42,650 nt of DNA from Phycisphaerales bacterium. Its GTDB lineage: Bacteria; Planctomycetota; Phycisphaerae; SM23-33. The position numbers were made by a program, and so were the translations under genes. The DNA lies in the NCBI GenBank assembly GCA_018644725.1, contig JABGPZ010000034.1, forward strand, positions 1-42,650. Reading direction: 5' to 3'. A model generated the notes under the pieces. That model was not told where the DNA came from and made no database searches. It saw nothing but the letters and a program-made list of their open reading frames with translations. Shown here piece by piece: positions 1 through 42,650 of the stretch. Position 1 is the stretch's first letter. Each line of letters begins with the position of its first letter.

Positions 1-51
1 CCGTCCAATCACATCCCTCACCCCGAAAAACGGTATTTTTCAAGATGCCCT

Positions 52-1029
52 TTAGTATGTCGTGAGGATGCCCGCTGCACTGCGGACGCGTTCGAGTGTT
101 TCTTCGGCCACGTTGCGGGCTTTTTTCCCGCCTTCGCGGAGGATGTCATACAGCGTGTCTTTGTCGGAGATCAGCGCGTCATAGCGCTCGCGGTCAACGG
201 CGAAGAGTTCGTTGATGCGCTCGGCGAGGAGGTTTTTCGCGTGGCCATAGCCAAACCCGCCCGCGCGATATTTCTCTTCGACCTCGGGCAGCTCTTCTTC
301 GTTGCAGACGAGCTTGAGCAGCGCAAAGACGTTGCAATTCGTCGGATCTTTCGGGTCTTCCAGCGGGGTCGAGTCGGTGACGATCTTGCCGCAGGTCTTC
401 TTGGTCTTCTTGGCGGTCTGGAAGATCTCGATGGTGTTGTTATAGCTCTTGGACATCTTTTGGCCATCGGTGCCGGGGACGATGGCGACGGCTTCGACGA
501 TTTTCGGCTCGGGCAGCACGAGTACCTCGCTGTCGAAGGCGGTGTTGAATTTGCCCGCGAGGTCGCGCGTGATTTCGATGTGCTGCTTCTGGTCCTGGCC
601 GACGGGCACGAGGTTCGAGTCGTAGATCAGGATGTCGGCCGCCTGGAGCACGGGATAGTCGAACAGCGCCATGTTCGGCGTGATGCCCTTGGCGAGTTTG
701 TCCTTATAGCTGGTGGCCTTTTCCATCTGGCTCACGGGGCAGACGGTGTTGAGGAACCAGCACAGCTCGGTGGTTTGCGGGACGTCGGACTGCAAAAAGA
801 ACGTGCTCGAATTGGGGTCCACGCCGAGCGCGAGATAGGCGGCCGTCAGGTGCAGGGTCCACTCTTCAAGCTGTTTCGCATCGCGGCAACTCGTCAGCGC
901 GTGATAGTTCGCAATGAAATAGAAGCACTCGTGGCCTTGGGCCTGGAGCTGGAGAAATTGCCGAATTGCCCCGAAATAGTTTCCGAGGTGAAGACGGCCC
1001 GAGGGTTGGATTCCGGATAAGACTCTCAT
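52..1029 (-). CDS. trpS: Tryptophanyl-tRNA synthetase
   Basis: Class I aminoacyl-tRNA synthetase that charges tRNA(Trp) with tryptophan in the cytoplasm. From this start the protein has 325 residues, close to the usual bacterial length of about 330. The HIGH-type signature is HLGN at residues 14-17 and the KMSKS loop is intact at about 191-195. An in-frame ATG at 1050 would add seven residues. I prefer 1029 because MRVLSGIQPSG is the normal TrpRS beginning and a GGA lies a suitable distance upstream. It follows murA on the same strand after a 67-bp gap, so the two may be co-transcribed. The assignment is firm; only the start is open. Confidence 0.96.
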   Translation of the reverse strand: MRVLSGIQPSGRLHLGNYFGAIRQFLQLQAQGHECFYFIANYHALTSCRDAKQLEEWTLHLTAAYLALGVDPNSSTFFLQSDVPQTTELCWFLNTVCPVSQMEKATSYKDKLAKGITPNMALFDYPVLQAADILIYDSNLVPVGQDQKQHIEITRDLAGKFNTAFDSEVLVLPEPKIVEAVAIVPGTDGQKMSKSYNNTIEIFQTAKKTKKTCGKIVTDSTPLEDPKDPTNCNVFALLKLVCNEEELPEVEEKYRAGGFGYGHAKNLLAERINELFAVDRERYDALISDKDTLYDILREGGKKARNVAEETLERVRSAAGILTTY

Positions 1030-20070: not shown

Positions 20071-20732
20071 CAGGCCTCTTCGAGTTGGCCGTCGTGGAGG
20101 CGCATCTGGCGGCTGCACACGGCGGCGATGGCGGGGTTGTGGGTCACGAGCACGAGTGCGGACTCGGGCGTGACGGCTTCGGCGAGGAGCGCGGCGATGG
20201 CGGCGGCGGTTACTTCGTCGCACGCGCCGGTGGGCTCATCGGCGAGCAACAATTTTGGTTGTGGCAGCAGTGCCCGGGCAACGGCAACGCGTTGGCGTTG
20301 GCCGACGGAGAGCTCGGCCGGGAGAGATTCGCGTTTGCCCGCGAGCCCCACGCGCACCAACAGCTCGCCTGCGCGGGTGCAGTCGTCGGCGGTGGGTTTG
20401 GCTCCGCCCGCGAGGAGCGGCAGCAGGACATTTTCCCACACGGTGCATTGCGGCAGGAGGTGATGGTCTTGAAAAATCGTCGTCACGGTTTCGCGTCGCA
20501 GGCGGGCACCATCGCGCGGCGAGAGGCCGATGAGCGATTTGCCCGCGACGGAAATTTCGCCCGCGTCGGCAGGTTCGAGCGCAGCGAGGAGATTCAGCAG
20601 CGTACTTTTTCCGCAGCCGCTCGGGCCGACGATGGCCAGCGATTCGCCCTCGGAGATCATGAGGTTCACGCCGCGCAGCACGGGTGCGTCATACGATTTT
20701 TCGACGTCGCGCAATTCGGCAATGATGTTCAT
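20070..20732 (-). CDS. ABC transporter ATP-binding protein (LolD/MacB-like)
   Basis: 220 residues. Walker A GPSGCGKST, Q-loop IFQDHHLLP, signature LSVGQRQR (a variant of LSGGQ), Walker B LLLADEPTGA, H-loop VTHNP. The length and the ALEPADAGEISVAG segment match the LolD/MacB/YbbA group. It powers the FtsX-type permease encoded directly downstream. The start overlaps the stop of the upstream dehydrogenase gene (TAATG), so translation is probably coupled across three genes. A longer open frame to 21026 is the shadow of that dehydrogenase. Confidence 0.93.
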   Translation of the reverse strand: MNIIAELRDVEKSYDAPVLRGVNLMISEGESLAIVGPSGCGKSTLLNLLAALEPADAGEISVAGKSLIGLSPRDGARLRRETVTTIFQDHHLLPQCTVWENVLLPLLAGGAKPTADDCTRAGELLVRVGLAGKRESLPAELSVGQRQRVAVARALLPQPKLLLADEPTGACDEVTAAAIAALLAEAVTPESALVLVTHNPAIAAVCSRQMRLHDGQLEEA

Positions 20733-21673
20733 TAGAAGGCTCCGTCTTCTGCCGGGTAGTCGGGGGTTTCGCCGGCGAGGACTTTGAGCACGTCGGTGAC
20801 GACCATCGACATACGCAATTTGGCGGCGGGTACGCACGCGGCGACGTGCGGCGTGAGAATTACGCTCTCCAGACCCAGCAGCGGATAATCGGCCGGGATC
20901 GGCTCGGGGTCGTGGCAGTCGATGGCCGCGCCAGAAACTTGCCCGGATTGCACCCCGCGGGCGAGGGCGGGATAGTCCACGCATCCACCGCGCGCGGCGT
21001 TGATGACCTGCACGCCGGCCTTGCATTTCGCCAGCGTCTCGTCGCAGATCAGATGGCGCGTGAGTTCGGTGATCGGCGTGTGGATGGTGATGATGTCGCT
21101 GCGGCGGTAGAGCTCGTCCTTGGTGACGAGTTCGTGGGGATAGTCGAGGTCGACCTCGCGGATGTCGTTGACGAGAACGGTCATGCCCAGCGCGGCAGCG
21201 ACCCGGCCGATACGCGAGCCGATGCGCCCGGCGCCGATGATTCCGAGGCTGCAGTCGGCGAGGAATCGTCCGTAGATTTGGCTGCGGGTGGCGTGGAATT
21301 CTTCGGGCGTAAGCGCGGCCGTGATCGGCCAGAATCGACGGTTGAGTTCGACGAGCATGCGCGTGGTATAGTCGACCACGGCGAGGGTGTTCGCGGCGGG
21401 GGTGTGGACAACTTCGACGCCGCGTGCGCGACAGGCGAGCACGTCGACATTTTCCAGCGCGACGCCCGCGCGGGCGACAACTTTGAGTTTCGGCGCGGCA
21501 TCCAGCAGGGCTTGATTGACCTGCGTATAGGTGCGCACGACCAGGCCGTCGGCCTCGGCGATGACGTCGAGAACGGTTTCGGGCGTGGCGTGAATGATGG
21601 TGGCGCGCTCGGCGAGGACCTCTAGCGCGGGCGGCTGGAGCGGTTCGGAAACGACGACGGTGGGTTGGGTCAT
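20732..21673 (-). CDS. D-isomer-specific 2-hydroxyacid dehydrogenase (phosphoglycerate dehydrogenase-like)
   Basis: 313 residues. NAD-binding GIIGAGRIGSRIG near the middle; catalytic Arg in INAARGGCVD; Glu in DPEPIP; His in TPHVAACV. This is the minimal SerA-like core without the C-terminal ACT domain. It could make phosphohydroxypyruvate for serine synthesis or act on another 2-hydroxyacid; the sequence does not decide. Start ATG at 21673, 68 bp after the RF-like gene, and the stop overlaps the ATPase start. The frame open to 21922 is a shadow. Confidence 0.88.
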   Translation of the reverse strand: MTQPTVVVSEPLQPPALEVLAERATIIHATPETVLDVIAEADGLVVRTYTQVNQALLDAAPKLKVVARAGVALENVDVLACRARGVEVVHTPAANTLAVVDYTTRMLVELNRRFWPITAALTPEEFHATRSQIYGRFLADCSLGIIGAGRIGSRIGRVAAALGMTVLVNDIREVDLDYPHELVTKDELYRRSDIITIHTPITELTRHLICDETLAKCKAGVQVINAARGGCVDYPALARGVQSGQVSGAAIDCHDPEPIPADYPLLGLESVILTPHVAACVPAAKLRMSMVVTDVLKVLAGETPDYPAEDGAF

Positions 21674-21680
21674 GGTCGGC

Positions 21681-21719
21681 TCACTTGATCGGTGAAAGGG
21701 AGTGTTGCTTGCGCAGGTT
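21681..21719 (-). pseudogene. Orphan duplicate of the 3' end of the RF-like gene
   Basis: Thirteen codons including stop (NLRKQHSLSPIK, TGA) that repeat exactly, at protein level, the last twelve residues and stop of the RF-like gene ending at 21742. The two DNA copies differ at about eight positions, all silent, plus TGA versus TAA. Upstream in this copy's frame are the codons for KSANNLIE, so it looks like the tail of a diverged homologue. It lies in a different frame from the intact gene, with no start of its own. Confidence 0.7.
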
Positions 21720-21741
21720 TTCAATGAGATTGTTCGCGGAT

Positions 21742-22278
21742 TTATTTGATGGGAGAAAGGCTGTGCTGCTTGCGAAGATTTTGCGCGGCCTCGAGGAAAT
21801 GGCGATCGGCTTTGATGGTGCGGATGAGGTTCGAGGTGGTGATGCCGAAGCGTTTTGCGGTGGTGGACAGCTGCGCGCGGTCGGCGGCGAGGCAGTCCAG
21901 CAGCACGGCCGCAACGTGCCAATAGTCTTTGTGCTTTCGGCCGACCTCAAGGCGGTTTTTCATTTCGGCATCGTGCTTGGCGCGCTTGGGCAGGTGGAGA
22001 AATCTCGCGATGATCTCGGGCACGCGCGTCTCGGCGGGCGCGTCGGCGCGAAGCTTGGTGGCGATGTTCATCCGCAGACGGCGGATGGCATTTTTGCGAT
22101 TGTCGTGCTGCGAGCGCGAGTCGTTGGCGGTGGCGGTGATCTTCGTCGGCTGGTGGTGCAGTCGCACGGCCGAGGACACCTTGTTGCGGTGTTGGCCGCC
22201 GGGCCCGGAGGCTTTGTAAATATGCTGCTCGCATTGGGCCAGCAGCGCGTCGTCGGAAAGTGTGAGGTATTCGCGCAT
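21742..22278 (-). CDS. Peptide chain release factor-like protein (GGQ domain)
   Basis: 178 residues. The N-terminal half is the catalytic domain of class I release factors: ASGPGGQHRNKVSSAVRL with GGQ at 27-29, then a basic segment. The stop-codon-reading domains are missing, as in ArfB/YaeJ- or PrfH-like rescue factors. The C-terminal half (about 90-178) is not the short basic ArfB tail but a helical region with a helix-turn-helix-like stretch (TTAKRFGITTSNLIRTI). It probably hydrolyses peptidyl-tRNA on stalled or damaged ribosomes (inference). Start TGATG overlaps the dnaE stop. A duplicate of its final codons lies just downstream. Confidence 0.85.
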   Translation of the reverse strand: MREYLTLSDDALLAQCEQHIYKASGPGGQHRNKVSSAVRLHHQPTKITATANDSRSQHDNRKNAIRRLRMNIATKLRADAPAETRVPEIIARFLHLPKRAKHDAEMKNRLEVGRKHKDYWHVAAVLLDCLAADRAQLSTTAKRFGITTSNLIRTIKADRHFLEAAQNLRKQHSLSPIK

Positions 22279-25200
22279 CAGCGAGCTCCTGCGCCGGAGG
22301 GCTTCTTGTTTTCCCACGGCATGCGTTTTTTGGGTTCAGGTCGTTTGGGGAGGAATCGTACAGCCGTGGGGCTTTCGAGGACGGTTTCGATGTCTTCGAG
22401 CAGTTCGACTGACGGCATGATTCCGCCTTTATCGATCTGCACGCTCGCGACGGCCGAGAGGTTGCACGAGGGTTGGATGAAGAGCTTGATGGGCACGTGG
22501 CCGGGGTTGGCGGCGAGGGTGTCGCGCAGGGCGGCGGTGAGCGTTTCGTCGGCGGCGGGGGGCAGGAAGATCGCGCATTCGGCTGCATATTTCGCGGCAC
22601 CTTCGTCAATCGCAACGGCGGCGTCGACGATGATCTGCCCCTTGTCGCGCGAGCGGTCGATTGAGCCAGTGACGAAAATCATGGTGTCTTTTTCGAGCAG
22701 ATCCGAGATCTGCTTGTAGGTCCGCGGGAAGCAGACGGCCTCGTGTTTGCCCGCGGTGTCTTCGAGGGTGAGCATGGCCATTTTCTCGCCCTTTTTCTTG
22801 GTGAAGACCGGGCGCATCGCCGCGACCATGCAGCCGATGCGAACCTGCGTGTCCTGGGGGAATCGTTCGGGCTCGCGCATGAACAGACCGAAATCGGTGC
22901 GCGGAGGCCAGTTGAGGTAGTTGATGATCTGGCCGTACTTCACCAGCGGGTGGCTGGAAACGAAGAAGCCGAGGGTTTCTTTTTCGGCTTGGAGCAACTC
23001 GCCCTCGGACCAAGGTTGGACGTTGGGGAAGCTCGGGCGGACCGGCTCGCCGCCGCCACCGCCACCGAGCATGCCGCTGTCGCCGAAGAAACTCATCTGG
23101 CCGGACTTGCGATCTTTCGCGGCCTGGTTGCCGAGATCGATGGCCTTGTCGACGGCCGCCATCATCGCCGCGCGGTTGGAGCCCAGCGCGTCAAAGCCAC
23201 CGCATTTGATGAGCGCTTCGATGGCGGATCGGTTCACGCTACGCAGGTCGACGAACTCGCAAAAGTGGTAGAGGTCGGTGAATTGACCGACTTCTTCGCG
23301 CGCGGCCACGATTGCCTCGATGGCTGAATCGCCGACTCCCTTGACGGCCGAGAGACCGAAGCGGACTGCCTCGCCATCGACGACAAAGTCGTGCCCGCAG
23401 GTGTTGATGTTCGGCGGCAGGACCGCGACGCCCATGCGTTTGGCCTCGGCCATGTATTGCACGACCTTGGTCGTGTCGCCGCATTCGAATGTCAGCGTCG
23501 CCGCGAGGAATTCGCGCGGATAGTAGTATTTGAAATAGGCACCCTGATAGGCGACCATCGCGTAGCGCGTCGAGTGGGCCTTGTTAAAGCCGTAGCCCGC
23601 AAACTTCTCGATCTTGGCGAACAGCTCTTCGCCATCGTCGCGCGAAATTCCGTTCTCTTCTGCGCCGTTGAGGAAGTTCTCTTTCTCGGAAGCGATGGTC
23701 TTGAGCTTCTTCTTGGAGATCGCCTTAATCAGCGTCAGCGCCTTATTGAGCGGGAGCTTGCCGAGGATGTTGAGCACCTGCATGACCTGTTCCTGATAGG
23801 CCATGATGCCGTAGGTTTCCGCGAGCAGCCCGTCGACGCTTTCGTGCAGCGAGGGGATTTCCTCGATGCCGTCCTTGCGCTTGCAATAGTCGGGGATGAA
23901 TTCCATCGGTCCGGGGCGATACATCGCGTTGGCGGCGATGAGGTCGCTGAGGCGCTGGGGCTTCATTTGCGAAAGGATGCCCTTCATGCCGTCAGATTCA
24001 AACTGGAACACGCCATCGGTATAGCCGTTGCGGAACAGCGCGTAGACGCCATCATCGTCGAGGGGGAACAGCTCGGGGTCGCGGTCTTCGCCGGTGCGCG
24101 CTTCGACGAGTTCGCGGCAGCGCTGGAGAATCGTCAGCGTGCGTAGCCCGAGGAAGTCCATTTTCATCAGGCCGGCTTTTTCGCTGGTCGGCCCGTCCCA
24201 CTGGGTGACGTATTCCTTTTTGTCCAGGCCGTCGCGGTTGGCGACGCACAGCGGCACGACGGTTTCGAGTGGTACGTCGGCGACGATCACGCCCGCAGCG
24301 TGGATGCCGGTGTGACGATAGAGCCCTTCGAGCTTGGCGGCGTAGTCGAAGAGTTCTTCCACGCGCGGGTCCGAGTCTTTCATGCGCGCGAGGTCGGGTT
24401 CGGACTTGAGGGCCTTGGCGAGGGTGACCTTCGGGCCGTCGGGCACGAGCTTGGTAATCGCGTCCATGTCCTTGGGTTCGAAGCCCAGCACGCGGCCTAC
24501 GTCTTTGAGTACGGCCTTGGCCTTGAGCGAACCGTAGGTGATGATCTGTGCGACGTGTCCATATTTTTCGCGGACATAGTCGATCACATCTTGCCGGCCA
24601 TTCTGGCAAAGGTCGATATCAATATCCGGCGCCTCGGCGCGTTCGGGGTCGGTGAAGCGCTCGAACAGCAGGCCATATTGCAGGGGGTCGACTTCGGCGA
24701 TGCGCAGGCAATAGCCCAGCAGCGTCGCCACCCCGCTCCCACGCGGCGCGGAGGGGATGGAGTTTTCCCGCGCGAATTTCACGAAATCGTAGACCACGAG
24801 GAAGTAGCTCGAATAGCCTTTGTCGGCGATGACCGTCAGCTCGCGGTTGAGCCGGTCGCGGTATTCCTGCGGGATTTCACGGTCTGCGAAGCGTTCGACG
24901 AGTCCCGCCTCGGCGAGGTCGCGCAGGTACAGGTCGTCGTCCTGAAGCTCGCCCGATTTCGAGCGGTCACCGTGAACTTCGTAGGAGGCTTTGGAGCGCT
25001 CGGTGAGTTCTGCGAGGTGAGGCTTGTCGGCGAGGAAGTCGTCGGGGAGCGGGAAGTTGGGGAGATATTCTTTGGAGAAGTCAATTTCGACGTTGCACAT
25101 CTCGGCGATTTTGAGCGTGTTGTCGCACGCGCCGGGGAACTCCTTGAAGACTTCGCGCATTTCTTCGGCCGAGCGGAGGTAGAGCACTTCGGGATAGTGT

Positions 25201-25946
25201 TCGCGGTCGGGGTTGGCGCGGATTTCGGCCTTGACGTCTTCGAGCTGTTTTTGCATCGAGACGCAGGTGAGGACCTGGTGGGCGGGTTTGTCTTCGCGGC
25301 GGAGGAAGTGCGCGTCGTTCGTGCCGATCAGGCCGACGTCGAGTTCGCTGGCAAGCCGCACGAGGTCGGGGTTGATGCGAGTCTGATCGGCGATGCCGTG
25401 GTTCTGGACCTCGATGTAGAAATTGTCCCGGCCAAAGATATCGAGATATTCCCCGGCGATGCGCTTGGCCTTGTCATAGTCGCCAGCGATGAGAGCGTTG
25501 GGCACTTCGCCGCCGAGGCAGGCCGTCGAGCAGATGATGCCCTCGGAATATTGGCTCAGCAGATCGCGGTCGATCCGCGGGACATAGTAGAAGCCCTCCA
25601 TGTAGCCATAGCTGCAGAGCTTTTTGAGGTTCAGCCACCCCGCAGCGTTCTGCGCGAGGAGGACCATGTGATAGCTGCTGCCCGAGCGCTGGCCCATGGA
25701 GCGGTCGTCGCGCGTGGTCGGCGAGATGTAGGCCTCGAACCCGAGGATCGGTTTGATGCCTTTGTCACGACAGGTATTGTAGTGGTCGACCGCGCCGAAC
25801 ATGTTGCCGTGGTCGGTGAGTGCGAAGGCGTTCATGCCGCCAGCGATAATCGCGTCGGCCATCGCGCCGACGGTGGCACCGCCGTCGAGCAGGGAGTAGT
25901 GGCTGTGGGTATGGAGATGGACGAAGCCGTCATTGGCCATGGGCAT
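22278..25946 (-). CDS. dnaE: DNA polymerase III alpha subunit
   Basis: Replicative polymerase, 1222 residues, slightly longer than the E. coli protein of 1160. N-terminal PHP domain starts with FVHLHTHSHYSLLDG (residues 8-22). Catalytic aspartates lie in PDIDIDLCQNGR (Asp441 and Asp443), followed by the thumb/fingers region, helix-hairpin-helix and an OB-fold C-terminus (about 1020-1130). The metal-binding His residues of the PHP domain largely remain, so proofreading-type activity is possible but unproven. ATG at 25946 or 25940; neither has a strong ribosome-binding site. A promoter lies about 50 bp upstream. It heads a five-gene run with overlapping starts and stops. Confidence 0.97.
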   Translation of the reverse strand: MPMANDGFVHLHTHSHYSLLDGGATVGAMADAIIAGGMNAFALTDHGNMFGAVDHYNTCRDKGIKPILGFEAYISPTTRDDRSMGQRSGSSYHMVLLAQNAAGWLNLKKLCSYGYMEGFYYVPRIDRDLLSQYSEGIICSTACLGGEVPNALIAGDYDKAKRIAGEYLDIFGRDNFYIEVQNHGIADQTRINPDLVRLASELDVGLIGTNDAHFLRREDKPAHQVLTCVSMQKQLEDVKAEIRANPDREHYPEVLYLRSAEEMREVFKEFPGACDNTLKIAEMCNVEIDFSKEYLPNFPLPDDFLADKPHLAELTERSKASYEVHGDRSKSGELQDDDLYLRDLAEAGLVERFADREIPQEYRDRLNRELTVIADKGYSSYFLVVYDFVKFARENSIPSAPRGSGVATLLGYCLRIAEVDPLQYGLLFERFTDPERAEAPDIDIDLCQNGRQDVIDYVREKYGHVAQIITYGSLKAKAVLKDVGRVLGFEPKDMDAITKLVPDGPKVTLAKALKSEPDLARMKDSDPRVEELFDYAAKLEGLYRHTGIHAAGVIVADVPLETVVPLCVANRDGLDKKEYVTQWDGPTSEKAGLMKMDFLGLRTLTILQRCRELVEARTGEDRDPELFPLDDDGVYALFRNGYTDGVFQFESDGMKGILSQMKPQRLSDLIAANAMYRPGPMEFIPDYCKRKDGIEEIPSLHESVDGLLAETYGIMAYQEQVMQVLNILGKLPLNKALTLIKAISKKKLKTIASEKENFLNGAEENGISRDDGEELFAKIEKFAGYGFNKAHSTRYAMVAYQGAYFKYYYPREFLAATLTFECGDTTKVVQYMAEAKRMGVAVLPPNINTCGHDFVVDGEAVRFGLSAVKGVGDSAIEAIVAAREEVGQFTDLYHFCEFVDLRSVNRSAIEALIKCGGFDALGSNRAAMMAAVDKAIDLGNQAAKDRKSGQMSFFGDSGMLGGGGGGEPVRPSFPNVQPWSEGELLQAEKETLGFFVSSHPLVKYGQIINYLNWPPRTDFGLFMREPERFPQDTQVRIGCMVAAMRPVFTKKKGEKMAMLTLEDTAGKHEAVCFPRTYKQISDLLEKDTMIFVTGSIDRSRDKGQIIVDAAVAIDEGAAKYAAECAIFLPPAADETLTAALRDTLAANPGHVPIKLFIQPSCNLSAVASVQIDKGGIMPSVELLEDIETVLESPTAVRFLPKRPEPKKRMPWENKKPSGAGAR

Positions 25947-42507: not shown

Positions 42508-42650
42508 GCCCGCGGGGGCAAAGCCCAGATGCTTCCTTCGAGAGGATCTCATCGAAAAACAGTGTACAAATTGCCCGATATCTCGATGTAGGGAAAGGCG
42601 GATTCAAGTCTCTAACGTGACACGTGAGTGAAACAAAAGCGGTGAGCGGG

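Follow-up and report, generated by a model that had tools for sequence, protein, structure and literature searches.

How does the end of a gene come to stand twice in the same place, spelling one peptide in two sets of codons? The window discussed here, 42,650 bp and the whole of contig C35 in a 112-contig draft genome (2.54 Mb, 95% complete) of a Phycisphaerales bacterium, raises this question in a short run of genes on the minus strand. The gene for DNA polymerase III alpha (dnaE, 22278..25937; NCBIfam NF004226, above cut-off) is followed by an RF-1-domain gene of 178 aa (21742..22278; Pfam RF-1, 2.3e-19), peptidyl-tRNA-hydrolase/release-factor-like in character and below the cut-offs of the ArfB, PrfH, prfA and prfB models, and then by a D-2-hydroxyacid dehydrogenase gene (20732..21673; Pfam 2-Hacid_dh_C, 7e-45). 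The current tail of the RF gene, T1 (minus strand, 21742..21780), encodes NLRKQHSLSPIK and stops with TAA; beyond it, on the same strand, lies a spacer, S, of 22 bp (21720..21741) with CATTGAA at its end, just before a displaced tail, T2 (21681..21719), which is offset from T1 by 61 bp, repeats its peptide and stops with TGA, and 7 bp after this TGA comes the ATG of the dehydrogenase gene (21673). At the other end of the RF gene, its ATG overlaps the TGA stop of dnaE in TGATG (22276-22280). The adjacency of dnaE and RF is absent from the family relatives examined, and in several of these the RF gene is divergent from the dehydrogenase gene and from another that I take, from its sequence, to be TPR-like. 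Both ends of the window (1-55 and 42596-42650) fall, for some 50-55 bp, inside repeats common to many contig ends of this genome, which are probably insertion-sequence ends.

Set against each other codon by codon on the minus strand, T1 and T2 read AAT/AAC, CTT/CTG, CGC, AAG, CAG/CAA, CAC, AGC/TCC, CTT, TCT/TCA, CCC/CCG, ATC, AAA/AAG and TAA/TGA, both translating to NLRKQHSLSPIK and a stop. A preliminary description of this DNA had held that the RF gene's final 12 codons, with their stop, stand again at 21681-21719 with silent changes only, and this is confirmed, 9 of 39 bases differing in seven sense codons and the stop, all of them silently. It had also doubted a simple duplication, or an old one under no selection, and rightly so, since each of three settings gave 400,000 simulations with 9 randomly placed changes and none of these kept the peptide and stop; a tandem duplicate decaying neutrally would collect changes regardless of codon position, which is not what the RF tail copy displays. 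A chance match is ruled out as well, because a degenerate DNA pattern of the tail finds only T1 and T2 in the window, where 0.00 matches were expected. A looser pattern has the same two as its sole matches in the whole genome, and the degenerate pattern matched none of the GTDB r220 contigs, a set from which records near the window were possibly omitted. The homology ends at or beside 21719, and the 22 bp after the TAA do not resemble the upstream codons of the RF gene. T2 is neither a chance match nor a neutrally decayed duplicate. Its offset of 61 bp puts it in a different frame from the RF gene, and the silent-only changes together with the 7-bp distance to the dehydrogenase ATG suggest that it was coding until recently and is placed as the natural end of a gene in an operon would be.

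The genus is represented by one genome only, and GTDB r220 yielded no congener, whether scanned by protein or by tail pattern. Among family relatives, a related tail motif, xIRKxHxLxPI, ends 29 RF homologues (loci L004-L032), none of which has a second tail, by eye, in the next 130 bp downstream; a peptide scan of 66 loci (L067-L132) returned the tail pair in L103 alone, which is the own genome. The relatives do offer a yardstick: the congeneric G030 and G021 have RF proteins that are 83% alike, with tails equal at 10 of 12 residues and separated by 7 silent codons and TGA vs TAA, and in the six pairs formed by four genomes from a different genus the tails agree at 8-11 of 12 residues with 0-3 silent codons. 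Measured by G030 and G021, T1 and T2 are as diverged as orthologues from two well-separated species of one genus. The preliminary description had proposed that a diverged homologue replaced most of the gene and left the old tail behind, and the part of this that stands is the resemblance of T2 to the end of a functional diverged allele, in its silent changes and its operon-like placement; the part that does not is a single local event, for more than 12 further displaced gene ends occur in the genome, most of them at 55-61 bp.

When ungapped local duplications with offsets of 30-129 were counted, 21 of the 51 in 1,430,723 bases of the own genome had an offset of 56-61 bp, as opposed to none of 6 in 386,482 bases from family relatives and none of 28 in 721,671 bases of IMG/VR contigs. 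Searching for 20-bp words with no more than 2 mismatches gave 23 pairs at 56-61 in the own genome vs about 1.5 expected from neighbouring offsets, and 2 in the relatives' set, which includes the own-genome locus L103. A looser search (18 bp, at most 2 mismatches) over 745,151 bases of relatives, some of whose loci overlap, placed 6 at 56-61 among the 22 matches listed at 50-79, and these six lie, by eye, in coding or simple-repeat sequence. A few displaced tails sit at other offsets (80, 83, 131 and 140). The common layout may be written L - T1 - S - T2 - R, where T is the end of a gene or tRNA or a terminator-like region, S a short spacer and R the natural flank; T1 plus S usually comes to 55-61 bp, the gene itself stays intact at each locus with a displaced end, and in many 3' cases R starts the leader of the next gene a few bases past T2. 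At some loci a unit of 56-60 bp is present two to three times in an array, which recalls bacterial minisatellites (VNTRs); unlike those, the units have no common sequence between loci, and the second is mostly partial with an unrelated flank. One array, at L206 13484-13664, has 3.1 copies of a 59-bp unit, and a 76-bp repeat at L144 5525-5850 lies beside a gap of 100 Ns.

The 3' ends so displaced belong to genes that Pfam identifies as a serine dehydratase, a DUF218 protein, a GalE-like epimerase, DnaJ, an NtrC-type regulator and LepA (offset 80), and the 5' ends to a chorismate-binding enzyme and a GH10-like protein. Nine comparisons of displaced 3' ends contain 31 silent codon changes against 2 nonsynonymous ones, both in the same DnaJ codon at the joint, which contradicts neutral decay, where changes ignore codon position. 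Detection by peptide favours silent pairs, a bias carried by the L176, L173 6406 and LepA cases, and the RF, SdaA, DUF218, GalE and DnaJ pairs were also recovered by plain DNA matching. Three of four 5' ends have at most one nonsynonymous change, and the fourth (L151) has 3 vs 1 silent. Pairs that are nearly identical (LepA 29/30, DnaJ 25/26, L167 45/46) coexist with diverged ones (RF, 30/37), so that displacement seems to be one step and divergence another. The serine dehydratase tail (L146 10023-10125) appears again 59 bp downstream in a 44-bp match whose 5 silent differences all fall in the first 5 codons, the last 27 bp being identical, and on this pattern looks like the edge of a recombination tract, that is, of an allele replacement. 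At L199 11043-11134 an intact tRNA-Leu (TAA anticodon) has a displaced 5' half 58 bp upstream, the copy breaking within the anticodon loop, and in L195 the displaced and current ends of a protein with the tail ...CCGKND..., presumably a SEC-C protein, differ conservatively. At L167 8632-8738 a 46-bp terminator-like hairpin has a second copy, differing by one change, at 61 bp; hairpins of a similar kind, ACACCC...GGGTGTTTT, occur at L146 8083 and L150 6224.

Where S meets T2 the sequence is often YTGAAAA, and T2 usually begins at an A-run. What lies 57-61 bp upstream is repeated after 10 of 425 YTGAAAA sites vs 1 of 425 random sites, and 11 of 113 C[AG]YT[GA]AAAA sites, belonging to 8 loci, agree with the sequence 54-63 bp upstream at 17 or more of 24 bases, the remaining sites matching no more than 13 of 24 at that offset. 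An A-run of at least 4 precedes T2 in 12 of 15 gene-end cases, judged by eye in a set assembled after the fact, and is absent from three 5'-end cases (L143, L175 and L151 at 3.5 kb). The motif occurs in differing reading frames, so any action it has would be at the level of DNA. The spacers, of 7-50 bp, have only this joint motif in common; S is unrelated to R in all 16 cases compared, also where the copies are 94-98% alike, although spacers so short make this weak for each locus, and the RF spacer has no second match in the own-genome sequence examined. Several other readings of these segments were rejected. A frameshift into the second tail would require a common frame, and offsets of 55-61 cover all frames; an intron- or bypass-like segment would require a common fold, and 15 segments have none; an uptake signal is not indicated by CATTGAAAA, which is barely over-represented (20 observed vs 13.9 expected); and the motif as an insertion-sequence end finds no support except a partial likeness to the contig-end repeats.

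The explanation that I tentatively favour, while rating it at a little below even chances from what the sequences offer, has two steps. In the first, a local duplication with filler would put a copy of the gene end at a distance of about 58 bp, with an A-rich joint; in the second, homologous recombination with diverged alleles would recode all or part of one copy, T1 or T2. For the RF gene this would mean replacement of the entire tail, leaving a silent-only difference. Such events would be tolerated at gene ends, since the duplicate supplies the stop again (or the start, at 5' ends) and the gene survives. The evidence for the class itself is statistical and sequence-based, and it is from this that I infer the mechanism; that the duplications occur in cells, in this order and by enzymes of the cell, is likewise part of what the two-step history would entail. 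The offset peak in the own genome, with none in the family relatives or the IMG/VR set, speaks for this history. So do the silent bias of the displaced 3' ends, the mix of nearly identical and diverged pairs, the tract-like serine dehydratase pair, the motif at the joint and the spacers that do not resemble R. Against it are the lack of any match to a reverse transcriptase (RVT_1) or to Cas1, on which reverse transcription and CRISPR adaptation were rejected as sources, the A-run that is not universal, the few other offsets and the 5' case at L151, where 3 of 4 changes are nonsynonymous. I also know of no cellular maker of a ruler of about 58 bp, and a peak that starts at 56 starts at k+1 of a k=55 assembly. 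This last point leads to a rival that I rate as almost equally probable, namely that a k=55 de Bruijn assembly of a metagenome joined the gene end of one lineage to the version of another, running from T1 through about k minus |T| bp of its own flank into the T2 of the other lineage, so that the tail would be real in each lineage and never present twice in one cell. The 136 contig ends include five pairs with an overlap of exactly 55 bp, and no identical end shared between contigs is longer than 55, which indicates that the assembly used k=55; with all five exact overlaps at 55 bp and the peak spanning k+1 to k+6 and starting sharply at 56, the coincidence is hard to ignore, the source is a draft in 112 contigs, and silent-only differences are what two orthologues show. 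However, a join in the graph requires shared 55-mers, of which the 77%-alike RF tails have none, and nothing in an assembler would favour YTGAAAA or an A-run at the joint. Nor do the spacers resemble the flanks that orthologues in a sister lineage would have, and this holds even for tails 94-98% alike; no offset peak appears in 722 kb from other metagenome contigs, arrays of two to three units are present, and there are no Ns at the joint.

Two further histories would each account for a portion of the pattern. It is very improbable that the loci are scars of a site-specific integrative element with a recoded end (attL being T1 and attR being T2) that has since been deleted internally. The tRNA-Leu copy that breaks in the anticodon loop, the seven integrase matches in the genome and the usual preference of integrative elements for gene 3' ends and tRNAs would suit such a scar, and the elements e14 and phage 21 in icd, which restore the end of their target gene, likewise leave a 3' end that is intact and partly recoded with the old end displaced. 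Unlike those two, the loci here have no element, integrase or attachment core; nothing but 7-50 bp of spacer separates T1 from T2, the displacement is 56-61 bp, and a constant 58 bp is not expected from random deletion. Improbable too, though less so, is a single step in which the diverged homologue of a congener entered through a crossover in homologous sequence upstream and an illegitimate joint on the downstream side (homology-facilitated illegitimate recombination, HFIR), leaving the resident tail behind. The silent-only pattern equals that of congeneric orthologues, and the A-run could serve as the microhomology of 3-10 bp that HFIR has at its illegitimate joint (PMC3240628). HFIR, as described there, pairs a homologous joint with one of short microhomology at the opposite side, and resident sequence can remain beside the incoming copy; its products, however, are reported as rare and usually as insertions of about 1 kb with deletions (PMC3240628), whereas the own genome has many events, a fixed step of about 58 bp and a joint motif, its offsets clustering at 56-61 bp where HFIR would give variable insertion and deletion sizes. 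A comparable model of displacement was proposed for effector genes in T6SS clusters of Vibrio, in which an incoming module moves the old effector 3' end downstream, where it persists as a remnant (PMC5361080); there whole immunity genes are kept, by selection, and here only 6-17 codons of housekeeping genes. From a one-step entry one would expect neither as many as 21 pairs in 1.43 Mb nor an unvarying step of 56-61 bp, and nearly identical pairs with unrelated spacers do not fit the flank of a congener. One-step replacement is thus partly supported, in that it explains the silent pattern and leaves the recurrence, the fixed offset and the unrelated spacers unexplained.

What follows depends on which history holds. 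Should the assembly be responsible, a duplication peak at k+1 would give a detectable warning that a draft genome contains false joints at the ends of genes, and tails that seem recoded, like that of RF, would be explained. Should the duplications be real, as in the two-step history, a ruler-like mechanism would be required, and a literature search found neither such a mechanism nor a published description of a class of displaced gene ends. It is conceivable, although I consider it unlikely, that in this lineage an undescribed process measures off some 58 bp (5-6 helical turns), uses a CAYTGAAAA-like or A-rich joint and adds gene ends with filler, dozens of times per genome, while leaving genes unbroken. 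Displaced gene ends, were they real, would amount to a frequent and nearly neutral genome scar, one that records the replacement of alleles between relatives.
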